The notes under the pieces were generated by a model. That model made no database searches. It was not told the DNA's origin and saw nothing but the letters and a program-made list of their open reading frames with translations. A program made the position numbers and the translations under genes. DNA of 21,518 bases, taken from IMG/VR virus record IMGVR_UViG_3300025889_001103, positions 1-21,518 of that record; one strand, given 5' to 3'. Origin of the DNA: a virus. Shown here one piece after another: positions 1 to 20,908 of this stretch (position 1 is its first letter; each line of letters begins with the position of its first letter).

Positions 1-156
1 AAAAAAAGAATCTTATCGGGTGAGAAATCAACTACCATAGCTGCTGACTATGGAGTGAGTGCTGGACACATTAGAAAAATGAAAATTGCTTTAGTAAATC
101 CAGATAGTCCTAATGGTAGATGGAAAAGTATTTTTAATAATCAAAATGCTAACTAG
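1..156 (+). CDS. C-terminal end of a helix-turn-helix protein (5' truncated)
   Basis: The frame is open from base 1 to the TAG at 154-156, giving 51 residues of a protein whose start lies outside the window. The segment TIAADYGVSAGHIRKMK reads as a helix-turn-helix: a small-residue first helix, the GVS turn and a recognition helix. It is followed by NGRWKSI, similar in layout to the NGKRW tail of the next gene. Such modules occur as the C-terminal DNA-binding part of phage HNH endonucleases and as small free-standing regulators. Without the N-terminus the choice cannot be made. The stop codon lies inside a 12-base perfect palindrome at 153-164. Confidence 0.6.
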   Translation, partial: KKRILSGEKSTTIAADYGVSAGHIRKMKIALVNPDSPNGRWKSIFNNQNAN

Positions 157-164
157 TATACTAG
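153..164. repeat. 12-base perfect palindrome overlapping a stop codon
   Basis: CTAGTATACTAG is its own reverse complement and covers the TAG stop of the preceding gene. It directly precedes the structured non-coding region. It could be a protein-binding site or simply chance; nothing else identifies it. Confidence 0.4.
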
Positions 165-411
165 GCCGACTTTTCTTTCCAAGAAGTATAACTTCTTGGT
201 TCTTCTTTTAGGTCAGAAAGTCAAGTCCCCTTCTAGATGCTAGTGCGCTAGGCACAAATCATCTAGAGGAACCAGACCTAAAAGACACTTCTTTTGAGGC
301 TCACAAACGCTCACAAGTCCCTAGAAGGAGCTGTAGTGATTTAACTGGAGAAGAAAGATAAACTTACTTCTTGTCGTGGAGGTGATATAGTCGGCAAACA
401 CCCTTGTCCAC
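165..411 (+). ncRNA. Candidate structured non-coding RNA
   Basis: This stretch has no convincing gene but many complementary segments. Hairpin A pairs 179-187 with 191-199 (nine base pairs, three-base loop). Hairpin B pairs 204-214 with 275-285 (eleven base pairs) and encloses hairpin C, 230-239 with 260-269 (ten pairs including one G-T). A small CTAG/CTAG or GTGC/GCAC hairpin sits at the tip of C. Near the 3' end, 376-384 can pair with 399-402 plus 407-411. The loop of that hairpin holds AGTCGGC (389-395), which is fully complementary to GCCGACT at 165-171, so a long-range closure or pseudoknot is possible. CTTCTAG at 230-236 can alternatively pair with CTAGAAG at 321-327, competing with hairpin C. 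Base composition is more GC-rich than the A-rich leader that follows. Pairings are read directly; function, class and strand are inference. Confidence 0.45.
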
Positions 412-468
412 TCATACAACAATAAATACAACAAAAAAAATAAAAGTCAAATTTCAAATAAAAATAAA

Positions 469-759
469 ATGATTGGTGCTACTAAACTAAACGAAAAACA
501 GGTGGCTGAAATAAAAGAGTTATTTCAAACCACCAACTTAACAGACACGGAGATTGGAGCAATCTTCAATGTGAGTCGTCCACACATCTGGGCAATTAGA
601 AATGGAAAGAGGTGGAACTCTGATATAAAAACATTCTACACCAAAGTAGAACTGGATATGATGTTAGAGGCAGAGCGTCCATTTATCCTGGAAGAAAAAA
701 AATCTAAAAATATTTTTCAAAGTATTTGGCAGTTTATAAAATCTGTTGTTTCTTTGTAG
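469..759 (+). CDS. Small helix-turn-helix DNA-binding protein
   Basis: This 96-residue protein opens with KLNEKQVAEIKELF, followed by a helix-turn-helix in which DTEIGAIFNVSRPHIWAI leads into RNGKRW. That pattern (KL-x-E-x-QV-x-EIK, then I-x-x-x-F-x-VS-x-x-x-I-x-x-I-x-x-G-x-x-W) is characteristic of the DNA-binding module found at the C-terminus of many phage HNH endonucleases and in stand-alone phage regulators. No nuclease residues are present, so a regulatory role is more likely. The C-terminal third (from about residue 70) is charged, then hydrophobic (FQSIWQFIKSVVSL). The start ATG follows an extremely A-rich leader with no Shine-Dalgarno sequence, as usual in Bacteroidota. The frame is open back to 391, but the upstream part is Asn/Lys low-complexity, so the ATG at 469 was kept. 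Confidence 0.75.
   Translation: MIGATKLNEKQVAEIKELFQTTNLTDTEIGAIFNVSRPHIWAIRNGKRWNSDIKTFYTKVELDMMLEAERPFILEEKKSKNIFQSIWQFIKSVVSL
725..756 (+). promoter_or_regulatory. Bacteroidota-type promoter for the gene at 788
   Basis: TTTG at 725-728 is followed after 20 bases by TTTCTTTG at 749-756, which matches the -7 box TAnnTTTG except at its second base. The layout is the same as at 1060-1091, and both promoters drive the same leader sequence. The promoter overlaps the end of the preceding coding region. Confidence 0.5.
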
Positions 760-774
760 TGTTAAATCACACAA

Positions 775-795
775 AAAAACAGAAACTATGAAAAA
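775..795 (+). repeat. Leader repeat, copy 1
   Basis: Twenty-one bases (five A, CAGAAACT, ATG, five A) are identical to 1111-1131 and include the start codon. Together with the promoters they form a duplicated promoter/leader cassette, about 63 bases from -33 box to start codon. Confidence 0.75.
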
Positions 796-1054
796 TGTAA
801 TCCGTCTTCAGTTCCCCGCACCTAAAGTAATGGGTATGGTAGTAAATCGTCAAAGCAAACAAATCGCTCTTCAAATGGATTGGGGTAGTGCTGGTTTGGC
901 TGATGTAGTAATCAAGAAAGTCAAAGGTGGTTTCACCTATGAAGATAAGCAGATGGGCTTTACCCGTCAGTTTATCGGTAAGGATGGATTGGAATTCTTG
1001 ATGTGGGAATTTGAATTACCTGTAGTATTGAAAAATATTTTGAAAAGTTTGTAA
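788..1054 (+). CDS. Hypothetical small early phage protein
   Basis: I do not recognise this 88-residue protein. It starts MKNVIRLQFPAPKVMGMV and reads as a small alpha/beta protein with alternating hydrophobic strands (IALQMDW, ADVVIKKV) and a final helix-like stretch (LKNILKSL). A longer reading from a TTG at 746 is possible but would place the start inside the promoter. The ATG at 788 sits in a leader identical to that of the next gene and was chosen for that reason. The gene has its own promoter (725-756) and is followed within five bases by the promoter of the next small gene, so it looks individually expressed as an early gene. Confidence 0.75.
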   Translation: MKNVIRLQFPAPKVMGMVVNRQSKQIALQMDWGSAGLADVVIKKVKGGFTYEDKQMGFTRQFIGKDGLEFLMWEFELPVVLKNILKSL

Positions 1055-3277: not shown

Positions 3278-3796
3278 ATGGAGCTGAAATCCTGGATTGA
3301 AAAAAATAACCAAGAACTCTATGATATAGTGAAAGGAATAATCAAAAATGAAGATGATGTCCCTGACCTATACCAATGTGTAATGGAGCAGATACTAACC
3401 AAGCCAGAAAAGTTCAACAAAGTTCCAGATGACCAAAAGGTCTTTTACTTTATCAAAATCCTTAAAAACAACTATTACTCCAAAACAAGTCCATATTATT
3501 ACAAAATGAAGAAAGACATAAGTAGATACTCCCCACTTGAAGAAAGTTCATTAGAAACGATTGTAGACACCTTATATGATGATGAACTACCCTCACTTGA
3601 TTGGGTCAAAGGACAACTTGATACATTGGACTGGTTTTCAAGGGATTTATTTTTACTATACATTGAGTTAGAGACAATAACCAAAGTATCACAACAAACT
3701 ACCATACCACTTAATAGTGTAAGTAGATACATTAAAAAAATTAAAGATATATTAAAAACCAGATGGGACTATGAACGAAAAAACTTGGACATTTGA
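3278..3796 (+). CDS. Sigma-70-like (ECF-type) transcription factor
   Basis: The 172-residue protein has the size and two-part layout of an extracytoplasmic-function sigma factor. Residues about 25-75 (DVPDLYQCVMEQILTKP, later VFYFIKILKNNYY) resemble region 2, which binds the -10 element. Residues about 118-165 resemble region 4: LDWFSRDLFLLYIELETI, then a helix-turn-helix (VSQQTTIPLNSVSRYIKKIK). The similarity is a pattern reading, not a database match. It is the first gene of the late block, directly upstream of the terminase genes, a usual place for such genes in Bacteroidota phages. It could redirect host RNA polymerase to late promoters; see the shared TTATATTA boxes. Its end overlaps the next gene by 26 bases. 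Confidence 0.65.
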   Translation: MELKSWIEKNNQELYDIVKGIIKNEDDVPDLYQCVMEQILTKPEKFNKVPDDQKVFYFIKILKNNYYSKTSPYYYKMKKDISRYSPLEESSLETIVDTLYDDELPSLDWVKGQLDTLDWFSRDLFLLYIELETITKVSQQTTIPLNSVSRYIKKIKDILKTRWDYERKNLDI

Positions 3797-4540: not shown

Positions 4541-4599
4541 TGGAAATTGTAATAACTGACCCTGGTGATGAGGTTGACCCAATAACAGAGTGGATATGA
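4540..4599 (+). CDS. Possible 19-residue microprotein bridging two genes
   Basis: A frame of 19 codons (MEIVITDPGDEVDPITEWI) starts with an ATG whose A is the last base of the preceding stop (TAATG). It ends in a TGA overlapping the ATG of the methyltransferase gene (ATGA at 4596-4599). The fit at both ends mimics true translational coupling. The peptide is acidic and has no recognised family. It may be a genuine microprotein or a ribosome-coupling relay. Confidence 0.35.
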   Translation: MEIVITDPGDEVDPITEWI

Positions 4600-5486
4600 T
4601 AGATATTAGATTAGGAGATTGTTTTGAGCTCATCAAGGACTTACCAGATAATAGTGTGGATTTGGTGATTACCAGTCCCCCCTATTCTAACATCTTGTCT
4701 TATGGTAAAAATGTGTCCGTAAAAAAACCTGGTGATTATGTGGATTGGTTATTACCCTTGTTTCATCAGATACATAGGGTATTGAAACCCACAGGTTCAT
4801 TTATCTTGAATATAAATGATAATTGTGAAGGGGGATATAGAAACACTTATGTCTTTGATTTGATTAGCAGAAACGCAAAGGAAACCCCCCTAAAACTATA
4901 TGATAATTACGCCTGGGTAAAACCTAACTCATTACCTAACGGACAAAAGAAAAGATTTAGAAATATCACAGAATACATATTCCATTTCTGTAAGGATTCT
5001 AAACAAATGAAATTCTATATGGATAGGGTATTGATTGAACCACAAGAATCCACCCTGAAAAAACAAGAAAGTCCCATAGAATATAACCGATACAACTATG
5101 ATGATGATGGACGCAGAATATCAAAAAAATTGTTATTCAGAAAGAAGGCAAAATCTACTGATGAAAATGGGGTAAGTAATGATGACTTTTGGATGCGGTA
5201 CGCCCCCATCAAAATCCGTCCCACAAATGTCTTCAACTTTCCAACAGCATCAGCGTCCCGTGATAATTTGATAAAACACCCTGCTCCATTTCACAAGGAC
5301 TTACCTTGTTATTTTATCAACTTACTAACAGACAAGGGGGACACTATTTTAGATGTGTTTGCGGGTATAGGGACAACGGGATTATGTTGTGATGATAGGG
5401 AATTTATCGGGTATGAATTGAACCCCGTATATGCTGATTTCGCAACCAAAAGATTATCAACAATTCAAACCAAACTTGAACTATGA
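4596..5486 (+). CDS. DNA methyltransferase, beta class (N4-cytosine or N6-adenine)
   Basis: This enzyme transfers a methyl group from S-adenosylmethionine to DNA. From the ATG at 4596 it is 296 residues. The catalytic motif TSPPY is at about 26-30 and the cofactor-binding motif DVFAGIGTTG at about 253-262, followed by FIGYELNPVYADFA. Catalytic motif first and cofactor motif last defines the beta class; TSPPY is more usual in N4-cytosine enzymes, but the target base cannot be settled from sequence. A GTG at 4590 gives two more residues; the ATG makes a four-base overlap with the upstream microframe. The stop overlaps the terminase large subunit start (ATGA, 5483-5486). Lying between the two terminase genes, it probably modifies the phage genome before packaging or protects it from restriction. 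No restriction nuclease is adjacent. Confidence 0.9.
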   Translation: MIDIRLGDCFELIKDLPDNSVDLVITSPPYSNILSYGKNVSVKKPGDYVDWLLPLFHQIHRVLKPTGSFILNINDNCEGGYRNTYVFDLISRNAKETPLKLYDNYAWVKPNSLPNGQKKRFRNITEYIFHFCKDSKQMKFYMDRVLIEPQESTLKKQESPIEYNRYNYDDDGRRISKKLLFRKKAKSTDENGVSNDDFWMRYAPIKIRPTNVFNFPTASASRDNLIKHPAPFHKDLPCYFINLLTDKGDTILDVFAGIGTTGLCCDDREFIGYELNPVYADFATKRLSTIQTKLEL

Positions 5487-13919: not shown

Positions 13920-16352
13920 ATGGCAGAAAAAGAATTTGTATTTAAGGTCAAAGTTGTAGATGAAAGTGGAAATGTGGTTGAAAAAACCGCCAAAAACTTC
14001 CAGGACTTAAATAGTAGTTTATCTTCACTTAAAAAAGAATTAGAAAGTGCTGATTTCGGTAGTGAAAAATGGAATCAGTTAAATGAGGAAATACAGAAAA
14101 CAGAAAACACCATTTCTGACGCTACTGAAAAAGCGGAAAAGATGAAGGAAACCCAAAAGAGTTTGGGCGATACTTTGGGTGGAATACCAGGCCCCGTAGG
14201 ACAAGTAGTTCAGGGGATTAAAGGATTGGGGACAGCGTTTAAGGCACTCATAGCGAACCCAGTTGGATTGGTATTAGCCGCCATCGCCGCTGCTCTTACC
14301 TTGTTGTATAAAGCATTTACTTCAACCAAGGCTGGTGCTGAAAAAATGGAGCAAGTGTTTGCTGGTATTGGTGCGGTTGTGGATGTTCTTCGTGATAGAT
14401 TTTTGGTATTAGCGGGGGCTATTAAAAAGTTATTCACATTAGATTTCAGTGGATTCTTTAGTGATTTGAAATCAGCATTTACGGGTGTTGGTGATGAGAT
14501 TGAAAAGGAGTTCAAAGCGGCTGCGGCATTAAAGGCTGAACTACAAGCGGTTGAAGATGCTACTCGTGAACTGAACAAAACAAGAGCGGAACAAAACAAA
14601 AAAATAGCAGAAGCTAAATTGGTAATCAATGATGAAACCAAATCTATAGGTGAAAGACAAAAGGCACTTGAGGAAGTCCGTCAAGCAGAGATTTCTTTAG
14701 CCAAGCAGGAAGAGATATTGGCTCAAAGAAGATATGAAGCCATCAAGGCTCAAAACGCATTGTCGGATTCAAGTAAGGAGGCGTTGGATGAAGAAGCGGC
14801 TGCGTATGTCGCTTTACAGAATGCTCAACTGGCATCACTTCAAAAACAGAAGGAACTATTTGACCAACAAAAAGCGTTAAGGGACAAGGAAAGAGCGGAA
14901 CAAAAAGCAGCTGCCGACAAAAGAAAGGCTGAACTCAAAGCGGCATTTGATTTTGAAACTCAACTACGATTAGACAATGAAACAGATGCTATTAAAAGAG
15001 CAAAAAAAGAAGTTGAATTAAATAGAACTAAATTATTAGAACAATTAAATGACCTAAAAATATCAAATACCAAAAAGCAAGAATTAACATTATTAATTGA
15101 AGCTAATACCGCAGTTAAAAGACAACAGATAGAAACAGAATCTTATTTGAAGTCCCTTACCATTTTGAAAGAATTTAGAGCTAAATTAATAGCGGAAGAA
15201 ATTGTGTATTCAGATTCGGTAGTTAAATTAGCAGAAGATACGGCATTTCAACAATTACAACTATTTGACGAGATAATTTCAGCGGAATATGATGTTAATA
15301 ATGGAAGAGAAAAGTTCATAGCTGAATTTGAACAAAGAACCAGCAAAAATCTAAAAGCAGTAGAACAGGCTTACAAAAACTATTATGATACTTTAATATT
15401 CCAAGCTAAACAAGCCTACGCTGAAGATATACAATTAGGAGAACAAAGAGAGGCTGAAAGAAAATTTCAAAATGAAGAGGCTGAACAAGTGCGTGATAAG
15501 GAGCTCAAGGATATAAGGTTAAAGGCAAGAGAGGGTGTAATAACAAGAGAGGAAGCAGCAAAACAAATTCTTGAAGCTGAAGGAACTTTCCAGGTTAGAC
15601 AAAAAGAAATCAGAGATTATTTTGATAATTATGAGGTCAATAGAAAAATCCAACTTGACGCTCAAATTGTAAACCTTGAAAATGAAAAAACTAATAAATT
15701 AACAGGATTAGCTCAAAAAGTTTCTGACTTTAGAAAAAAGATTTCAGACCAAGAAGCAGCGGCAGAGCAAGAAAGAATGAAATTGGCTGTATCCGCATTT
15801 GATACATTATCTTCACTAGCGGGTCAAGAAAGTGATTTGGGTAAAGCTTTGGCAGTTGCCTCTACAACAATATCAACATACCAAGCGGCTCAAGCGGCAT
15901 ACGCATCACAACTTACCATTCCAACACCAGACGCTCCCGTAAGGGCTGCCATCGCAGCGGGAATAGCTATAGCTCAAGGTTTAGCCAGAGTGGCGCAGAT
16001 TGTTAAGGTTGAACCTGTTAAAGCAGCTGAAGGAGGTATTATTGGAGGTGTTGGTAGTGATACAATGGACAACATACCTGCTATGTTGAGTAATGGTGAA
16101 AGTGTAATCAACGCAAAATCTACAAGGATGTTCGCACCACTTTTATCAACAATCAATCAACTTGGGGGTGGTAAAAGTTTTCAGTATGGTGGACTAACAA
16201 GTAGTCAAACTCAAGTATCCCCCCAAACCGCATTATTAAACGATTTGATAAACTTACAATCGGGAGCTCCCACAAAAGCCTATGTGGTTGCCAACGATGT
16301 TTACACCCAAAGCCAACTGGATAGACAGGTGAGGAGTAGAAGTGTCCTCTAA
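13920..16352 (+). CDS. Tape measure protein
   Basis: The tape measure sets tail length and passes through the tail tube. This 810-residue protein opens with a beta strand pair (EFVFKVKVVDESGNVVEKTA). Coiled-coil segments follow (about 28-80), then a Gly-rich hydrophobic region at about 87-133 (GIPGPVGQVVQGIKGLG, NPVGLVLAAIAAALTLLY) that could insert in a membrane. A long Lys/Glu/Ala/Gln-rich helical rod covers about 190-620. A second hydrophobic Ala-rich region (about 640-700) and a C-terminal GIIGGVGSDTMDNIPAMLSN with GESVINAKSTRMF complete it; that ending is typical of tape measure proteins. At roughly 1.5 angstrom per helical residue the protein implies a tail of about 120 nm if fully helical, a rule-of-thumb estimate. 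No lysozyme or peptidase domain is visible. Confidence 0.93.
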   Translation: MAEKEFVFKVKVVDESGNVVEKTAKNFQDLNSSLSSLKKELESADFGSEKWNQLNEEIQKTENTISDATEKAEKMKETQKSLGDTLGGIPGPVGQVVQGIKGLGTAFKALIANPVGLVLAAIAAALTLLYKAFTSTKAGAEKMEQVFAGIGAVVDVLRDRFLVLAGAIKKLFTLDFSGFFSDLKSAFTGVGDEIEKEFKAAAALKAELQAVEDATRELNKTRAEQNKKIAEAKLVINDETKSIGERQKALEEVRQAEISLAKQEEILAQRRYEAIKAQNALSDSSKEALDEEAAAYVALQNAQLASLQKQKELFDQQKALRDKERAEQKAAADKRKAELKAAFDFETQLRLDNETDAIKRAKKEVELNRTKLLEQLNDLKISNTKKQELTLLIEANTAVKRQQIETESYLKSLTILKEFRAKLIAEEIVYSDSVVKLAEDTAFQQLQLFDEIISAEYDVNNGREKFIAEFEQRTSKNLKAVEQAYKNYYDTLIFQAKQAYAEDIQLGEQREAERKFQNEEAEQVRDKELKDIRLKAREGVITREEAAKQILEAEGTFQVRQKEIRDYFDNYEVNRKIQLDAQIVNLENEKTNKLTGLAQKVSDFRKKISDQEAAAEQERMKLAVSAFDTLSSLAGQESDLGKALAVASTTISTYQAAQAAYASQLTIPTPDAPVRAAIAAGIAIAQGLARVAQIVKVEPVKAAEGGIIGGVGSDTMDNIPAMLSNGESVINAKSTRMFAPLLSTINQLGGGKSFQYGGLTSSQTQVSPQTALLNDLINLQSGAPTKAYVVANDVYTQSQLDRQVRSRSVL

Positions 16353-20030: not shown

Positions 20031-20570
20031 ATGAGTAATTATTCAAGCTGTCAGGTAAGCTCGGCGTGGAATCTATCCTGCTTAAGTTCAGTTGGAGGAT
20101 TAAAGGCTGTTTACCTTGGCGGAAACATTACAGGTTATACTGAAACTTCTGGTGAAATTTCACAAGTAGATGGTAGTGGTTCTGTGTATCTGTTTGAATT
20201 GGGTAAAAATGGTGGTTCTTCTTTAACAGAAACTATCAACAACTCCCTTGAAAATGGAACTCTGTTTTATCAGCAAGATTTGGTATTGGTTTTCGCTAAA
20301 TTGGAAACTGAACTTCGCAATCAAATTAAGCTTTTAGCACAGAATCGTGGACTAACTGCGTTTGTAGAAGATAATAATGGTAATATATGGTTCTTGGGAA
20401 CTGACTTTGATGGAGGATGGTTGTCTGCTGGAACAGCAGCGACAGGGGTCGCCTTTGGAGATTCTTCACAATACTCTATTACCCTTCAATTCTTTTCACA
20501 ATCACCGATGATGATGTTGGATGATACATTAGCTAATGTATTGTCTGGTATTACAATCGTAACCAGTTAA
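20031..20570 (+). CDS. Probable tail tube or major virion protein
   Basis: The 179-residue protein (MSNYSSCQVSSAWNLSCLSS) resembles a family common just downstream of major capsid genes in Bacteroidota phages. Its features are an N-terminal Cys/Ser-rich segment, ENGTLFYQQDLVLVFAKLET, NQIKLLAQNRGLTAFVEDNN, GNIWFLGT and the Gly/Thr turn GTAATGVAFGDSSQYSITL. The last part is a beta hairpin of the tail-tube type. I infer a tail tube protein by position and pattern; a head-decoration role is an alternative. An intrinsic terminator follows 18 bases after its stop, so it ends a transcript that begins at or before the capsid gene. Confidence 0.65.
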   Translation: MSNYSSCQVSSAWNLSCLSSVGGLKAVYLGGNITGYTETSGEISQVDGSGSVYLFELGKNGGSSLTETINNSLENGTLFYQQDLVLVFAKLETELRNQIKLLAQNRGLTAFVEDNNGNIWFLGTDFDGGWLSAGTAATGVAFGDSSQYSITLQFFSQSPMMMLDDTLANVLSGITIVTS

Positions 20571-20588
20571 TAAAAATTAACAAAAAAT

Positions 20589-20610
20589 AAGGGGGGGAAA
20601 CCCCCCTTTT
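20589..20610 (+). terminator. Intrinsic terminator with GAAA tetraloop
   Basis: AAGGGGGG (20589-20596) pairs with CCCCCCTT (20601-20608) around a GAAA tetraloop, followed by only two more T residues. It separates the capsid/tail-tube transcript from the fibre-region genes. The short T run suggests incomplete termination. Confidence 0.8.
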
Positions 20611-20626
20611 AGCCAATTAAAAATAT

Positions 20627-20908
20627 ATGAAAAGTAAGAGACAATATACTTGGGGATACATAGGAAAACTGCGTAAGTTTGACTATTTTGTGGATACTGA
20701 ACCAGAACTTTCAATAGAGGAAAGAAAAAAGCAGGTGTTCGCAGCTAAAGATAGTTGGAAAGCGGACTTTGATACTTTGCGTCCTATTCGTGTTGGTGGA
20801 TATGTTCCACAGACAACCCCCCCTCCCGTTGAAACTTACAATATAATAACGCAATCAGGCGATAATATTATTACCATATCTGGTGATTACTTAATTTGGA
20901 ATATCTAA
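20627..20908 (+). CDS. Hypothetical tail-fibre-region protein
   Basis: This 93-residue protein starts MKSKRQYTWGYIGKLRKFDY. Its first 65 residues are charged and probably helical (SIEERKKQVFAAKDSWKADF). The last part is a Pro/Thr linker (VPQTTPPPVETY) followed by two short beta repeats (NIITQSGDNIITISGDYLIW). Such S-G-D-N-I-I-T repeats are found at the ends of small phage tail-fibre accessory proteins, so an attachment or fibre-adaptor role is plausible, not shown. It lies three bases upstream of the next gene's ATG and probably shares its transcript. Confidence 0.6.
   Translation: MKSKRQYTWGYIGKLRKFDYFVDTEPELSIEERKKQVFAAKDSWKADFDTLRPIRVGGYVPQTTPPPVETYNIITQSGDNIITISGDYLIWNI

Follow-up and report, generated by a model that had tools for sequence, protein, structure and literature searches.

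IMG/VR virus record IMGVR_UViG_3300025889_001103 was analysed over its full length of 21,518 bases, referred to here as the window, and has a phage-like gene order. A DNA methylase and the large terminase were named by Pfam, and we take a small terminase, capsid and tail genes to be present on the basis of sequence and position. TTG-spacer-TAnnTTTG promoter-like sites lie upstream of the genes at 1124 and 1936 and suggest a host in the Bacteroidota. Comparison with 50,697 phage records found no relative of the window capsid or connector, and among the matches listed the terminase reached at most about 31% identity; the phage thus represents an uncultivated lineage. The methylase (4590-5486), of the N6/N4 type, adjoins the terminase genes; no restriction enzyme was recognised close to it. 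Positions 3278-3796 encode a weakly sigma-factor-like protein (PHROG 1740, Sigma70 region 2), with TTG-spacer-TATATTTAT upstream of it; the two are candidates for a phage sigma factor and a promoter type.

The element described here occupies positions 165-413, with plus-strand genes on both sides. The view of the initial annotation that no gene explains 165-411 held across homologous loci, where every frame is broken by stops in nearly all cases and none is conserved. The features of the element are given below in plus-strand numbering.

165-413, minus strand (probable): conserved structured RNA, with 15 other contigs and covariance model R1
165-171: arm a, GCCGACT, pseudoknot with 389-395
180-188: arm b, CAAGAAGTA, long-range helix closing the central domain, with b'
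191-199: second copy of the b' sequence, local hairpin with 179-187, excludes b/b'
203-214: segment R1, TTCTTTTAGGTC, pairs with 275-285 (11 bp in the window)
222-229: unpaired motif 1, CAAGTCCC (GGGACUUG on the minus strand), invariant in the alignments
231-268: apical hairpin D, exchangeable cassette
275-285: segment C', GACCTAAAAGA, alternative partners R1 or R2
289-300: segment R2, TTCTTTTGAGGC, near-copy of R1
301-304: helix F, 5' arm TCAC, partner 336-339
309-312: hairpin E, 5' arm GCTC, partner 328-331
314-321: unpaired motif 2, CAAGTCCC, loop of hairpin E, invariant in the alignments
328-331: hairpin E, 3' arm GAGC, partner 309-312
336-339: helix F, 3' arm GTGA, partner 301-304
365-373: arm b', TACTTCTTG, partner of arm b
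376-411: hairpin h, 376-379/408-411 and 381-384/399-402, bulge 403-407, loop with a'
389-395: arm a', AGTCGGC, in the loop of hairpin h
422-450, minus strand: promoter-like element, TTG (450-448), 19 bases, TATTTAT (428-422)

Pairings and folding energy in the window

All pairings listed in the initial annotation were found in the window sequence. CCAAGAAGT (179-187) is complementary to ACTTCTTGG (191-199), TCTTTTAGGTC (204-214) to GACCTAAAAGA (275-285), TCTAGATG (232-239) to CATCTAGA (260-267), GCCGACT (165-171) to AGTCGGC (389-395) and CTTCTAG (230-236) to CTAGAAG (321-327), while GTGGA (376-380) can pair with TCCAC (407-411) and GGTG (381-384) with CACC (399-402). The octamer CAAGTCCC is present at 222-229 and 314-321; the repeat of GCTCACAA also exists, but its first copy lies at 299-306 rather than 300-307, a shift of one base. 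That description omitted three of the best-conserved helices, the long-range 180-188/365-373 together with 301-304/336-339 and 309-312/328-331.

The folding energy of the element has a z of -3.65, and 0 of 200 shuffles folded equally well. This test is weak by itself, because z is equally low or lower at a few other sites of the window (20501 on the plus strand, 2201 on the minus strand and 2601 on the plus strand), and covariation is the decisive test. Two of these other low-energy stretches, both on the plus strand, are 20501-20750 (z -5.0) and 2601-2850 (z -4.4).

Homologues in viral contigs

Homologues were gathered by pattern scans of IMG/VR viral contigs. GATATAGTCGGCAAAC, picked first as a loop that looked conserved, returned 12 unrelated coincidences, because the loop varies together with its partner. 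A scan with the unpaired 15-mer AGAAAGTCAAGTCCC produced the first homologues, with the whole architecture in three contigs at 67-78% identity and a fourth cut by the contig end. After further patterns, the set comprised 15 contigs in addition to the window (L098, L108, L111, L119, L125, L129, L131, L135, L137, L138, L139, L140, L141, L142 and L143), of which three are nearly identical to another member, one is degenerate (L141) and one is mostly cut off (L111). L125 and L129 carry an identical copy, and L135/L140 and L098/L108 are close pairs. The degenerate copy (L141:3619-3853) is without arm a and hairpin h, and its locus is also without the 130-137 aa gene of its relatives.

The RNA is about 205-270 nt long across the family, and whole-record searches revealed one element per phage record, with no second strong copy. 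Covariance model R1 scores window 165-413 at 4e-48 and detects L131 (2e-23) and L138 (6e-16), neither of which was in its training set. The carriers are tailed phages, never cultured, that apparently infect Bacteroidota. A whole-region similarity search of phage and plasmid collections gave no DNA match, and no member was found in two pattern scans of bacterial genome contigs, or in 396 sampled genomes from the phylum of a Bacteroidales MAG, scanned with strict filters and without a positive control. Relatives of the terminase, searched as loci and as 20 whole records, all possibly fragments, contained no copy of the RNA, and the proteins of the neighbouring genes 469-759 and 785-1054 retrieved no usable relatives as queries.

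Covariation supports a conserved fold

Pairs were scored for helices b/b', C (R1:C'), F, E and h on a MAFFT alignment of ten sequences built without regard to structure (alignment A1). Pairing was found in 95% of cells, compared with 44-51% when the partners were slid, and 19 of the 35 pairs were altered on both sides, compared with 1-4. Shuffling lowered the covariation score from 0.356 to 0.151, and sliding the partners lowered it to 0.04-0.10. RNAalifold recovered b/b', F, E and h unaided, and the minimum-energy fold of L098 alone also rediscovers the structure. Covariation in related contigs thus bears out the proposal that 165-411 is a structured RNA.

Helix b/b' is perfect over 8-10 bp in 12 of 12 intact homologues, with six of nine pairs altered on both sides. 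In the hand alignment, hairpins E and F each occur in six versions. Those of helix F are TCAC/GTGA, TCCC/GGGA, TCTC/GAGA, TTCC/GGAA, TGAC/GTCA and TTAC/GTAA (48/48 pairs), and those of hairpin E include GCTC/GAGC, GCTG/CAGC, ACTC/GAGT and GAAC/GTTC.

The proposed pseudoknot 165-171/389-395 was likewise upheld, its arms covarying in the homologues. Helix a/a' exists in three wholly different versions, GCCGACT/AGTCGGC (compared over six pairs as CCGACT/AGTCGG), AACTTG/CAAGTT and CCCTTT/AAAGGG. It could not be counted on A1, in which the arms shift by a few columns, and a set of arm-only sequences (A4) was used, whose hand-picked arms make the test lean towards structure; there, 9 distinct sequences were 100% paired and all six compared pairs of a/a' were altered on both sides, as were six of the eight pairs of hairpin h. 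Sequence comparison thereby establishes 165-413 as a member of a new family of structured RNA, backed by covariation and without an Rfam entry. In the predicted fold, the pseudoknot joins the ends, and b/b' encloses a domain with hairpins D, E and F.

Competing pairings and an exchangeable hairpin

The local hairpin 179-187/191-199, present in the window, has counterparts in few homologues, with similar hairpins in only 5 of 13 loci (the window, L125, L137, L138 and L141); in every intact homologue the arm 179-187 has its conserved partner at 365-373, which makes the local hairpin an alternative. The switch proposed between 230-236 and 321-327 did not survive comparison, being tied to one type of apical hairpin and absent where that hairpin has been exchanged (L108, L143 and L142). 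A better two-state candidate is suggested by the near-copies R1 and R2, which may compete for C'. The R1:C' pairing is strongest in the window, L143 and L137, with a compensatory change from T-A to A-T in L137, and a C':R2 hairpin appears in the minimum-energy fold of L098. R1 and R2 vary together in L119, L135, L139, L131 and L138; in the last two the A-rich part of C' is missing, and R1 and R2 are still near-copies.

Motif 1 lies beside hairpin D and motif 2 in the loop of hairpin E. Outside the RNA, CAAGTCCC or its complement was found at most once per locus in nine loci, and the phage therefore offers no repeated antisense target. Hairpin D looks like a cassette swapped between phages. The flanks of the RNA in L098 (5389-5613) and L108 (7438-7655) are 98-99.5% identical, for about 1.3 kb at one end and about 1.7 kb at the other, but the D hairpins are unrelated, as if a stretch of about 40-50 bases had been traded; the hairpins of L143 and L141 start like that of L108. 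The swap constitutes a natural experiment that marks the part of the RNA under changing selection.

Comparison with known RNA systems

Against the 4227 covariance models of Rfam 15, neither the window nor any of seven homologous loci reached a gathering threshold, and scans of window 1-800 and L098 with relaxed cutoffs turned up no credible hit within the element. Known riboswitches were dropped in the absence of an Rfam match. A group I intron was considered from homing-endonuclease-like genes nearby and from GATATAGTC in the window, which resembles the intron J8/7-P7 element; it was rejected, as the resemblance is missing from most homologues and there was no Rfam group I match even at E 10. 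No P3-P7-P8 core was recognised with the Rfam model. TCAAGTCCCC may resemble the tRNA T arm. No reverse transcriptase, as would accompany a retron, was found among the flanking genes searched, the contigs being fragments.

The pRNA of phi29 is a free-standing phage RNA with loop pairing. It differs from the present family, which has no Rfam match, is carried by phages whose large terminase is of the usual type and varies in position relative to the terminase. In preQ1-type pseudoknotted leaders, the loop of a 5' hairpin pairs with a downstream strand that may overlap the ribosome-binding region, a likeness shared by L131 and L138; here, however, the domain between is far longer and the downstream gene inconstant, and preQ1 reached a mere chance-level Rfam score elsewhere in the window. 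GOLLD and ROOL, found in phages and prophages, are large structured non-coding RNAs, neither with a known function; ROOL has multiple pseudoknots, and GOLLD combines a conserved with a variable part (PMC12286853). The present family resembles them as a phage-borne structured RNA with a pseudoknot and with conserved and variable parts. They are, however, about 660 to over 800 nt long, compared with about 250 nt here; their Rfam models gave no match, and no resemblance in sequence or architecture was seen. They also often lie near tRNA islands, whereas the 21.5 kb window, the one sequence scanned, contains no tRNA. Not many phage RNAs of comparable complexity have been described, and several of these lack an assigned function. 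Structured RNAs carried by phages were already known, and the novelty lies in the family, which sits in a lineage whose capsid and connector are unmatched.

A promoter-like element suggests the minus strand

The plus-strand reading of the initial annotation is disfavoured by a promoter-like element that suggests the minus strand. TATTTAT stands directly before hairpin h on that strand in 11 of 14 loci, including the window; L119 has TACTTAT, and TTG lies 19-22 bases upstream of TATTTAT/TACTTAT in nine loci. These positions were read from the sequences, the automated best-score column having chosen other spots. In other upstream regions, TTG-N18..23-TATTTAT lies on the gene strand in seven of eight cases, a weak test of orientation (p 0.07) for the motif on which the strand call rests. 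In most loci, though not in the window, the flanking genes are on the minus strand. Neither mean folding energy (z -2.46 plus, -2.70 minus) nor loop composition discriminates between the strands. The RNA is probably transcribed from the minus strand.

Interpretation and alternatives

The best explanation overall, which we hold with moderate confidence, is a stand-alone phage RNA gene on the minus strand. The structure is conserved by compensatory changes, and the RNA has no fixed cis partner gene, because the flanking genes differ among phages: a nucleotidyltransferase-like gene and a 130-137 aa protein in some, small helix-turn-helix-like and zinc-ribbon genes or divergent operons in others. 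Transcription of such a gene would probably begin near 415 from TTG-N19-TATTTAT, with hairpin h as the 5' end and arm a as the 3' end, and the pseudoknot would tie and shield both ends. Both GGGACUUG sites, which read CAAGTCCC on the opposite strand, could bind one and the same partner, be it a protein, a host RNA or a phage RNA, and hairpin D may be the variable part traded between phages, as if meeting a varying host component. Shuttling of C' between R1 and R2, and of b between its local and long-range partners, could provide two conformations. More speculatively, and with considerable doubt, the family may form an end-locked RNA class with the 8-base motif twice, whose D cassette is swapped under host selection and sets specificity for, or escape from, a host factor.

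The main rival, which we consider unlikely, is that the RNA, transcribed on the minus strand from the TATTTAT promoter, serves the next gene as a cis-acting untranslated 5' leader, with arm a near a start codon hidden or freed by the loop of hairpin h. The next minus-strand start codon follows arm a after 8-54 nt in eight loci. Arm a is 8 nt before ATG in L131 and L138, where it is purine-rich and Shine-Dalgarno-like, and 21-54 nt from the start in L098, L143, L135, L140, L142 and L129; L141, where the 130-137 aa gene is missing, has lost arm a and hairpin h. However, the distance is 150-310 nt in L108, L119 and L139, and no minus-strand gene follows in the window; a constant close position before a co-directional gene was thus not found. 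The downstream gene is also of at least three unrelated types, a TTG-N20-TATATTTG promoter separates the RNA from the gene in L098 and L142, and Bacteroidia ribosomes mostly do not use Shine-Dalgarno sequences (PMC9976891). A stand-alone RNA is preferred over a leader, though not strongly, because the start-codon distances and the types of gene downstream vary.

It is improbable that the element acts as DNA, in single-stranded or cruciform form, as a replication origin, packaging or recombination site. Near-absence of wobble pairs is unusual for an RNA and would fit a DNA or two-strand role: the hand-aligned helices contain one G-U and two A-C in 404 cells, a count that is no clean test of wobble rarity since the arms were hand-chosen for pairing. 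The helices thus covary almost without intermediates of the G-U or A-C kind, as though each strand counted, and the element is intergenic, near late genes, and can take either orientation relative to genes. A pseudoknot across 220 bases with an adjoining promoter-like element nevertheless suits RNA better, a duplex recognised by protein would not keep long-range complementarity, and placement relative to the terminase genes varies.

It is very improbable that the RNA serves the helix-turn-helix gene at 469 as a plus-strand leader or riboswitch, an idea raised in the initial annotation. That gene lies on the plus strand 55 nt downstream in the window, but the gene adjoining the RNA differs between phages; the homologue of the 469 gene is about 2 kb away in the opposite orientation in L119, L098 and L108, most loci have no close downstream plus-strand gene, and no TAnnTTTG element occurs on the plus strand within 200 nt upstream of the RNA. 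A chance structure or coding region, for which the few window places of equally low folding z might speak, can be practically dismissed in view of the covariation and of the stop codons that interrupt every frame in nearly all homologues.

Zinc-ribbon genes near the RNA

In most loci, small CxxC...CxxC zinc-ribbon proteins are encoded no more than about 1-1.5 kb from the RNA, for example at 1282-1905 in the window, at 14100-14441 in L131, in the flanks of L138 and L139, and in L129. Pfam gives them no name, and they often end in an LGY...QF..KYGI-like tail. On the strand opposite to the initial reading, arm a forms the Shine-Dalgarno-like AAAGGGG 8 nt before the start codon of such a zinc-ribbon gene in L131 (near 14441-14455) and in L138 (near 2133-2150), phages whose hosts for the most part do without sites of this kind.
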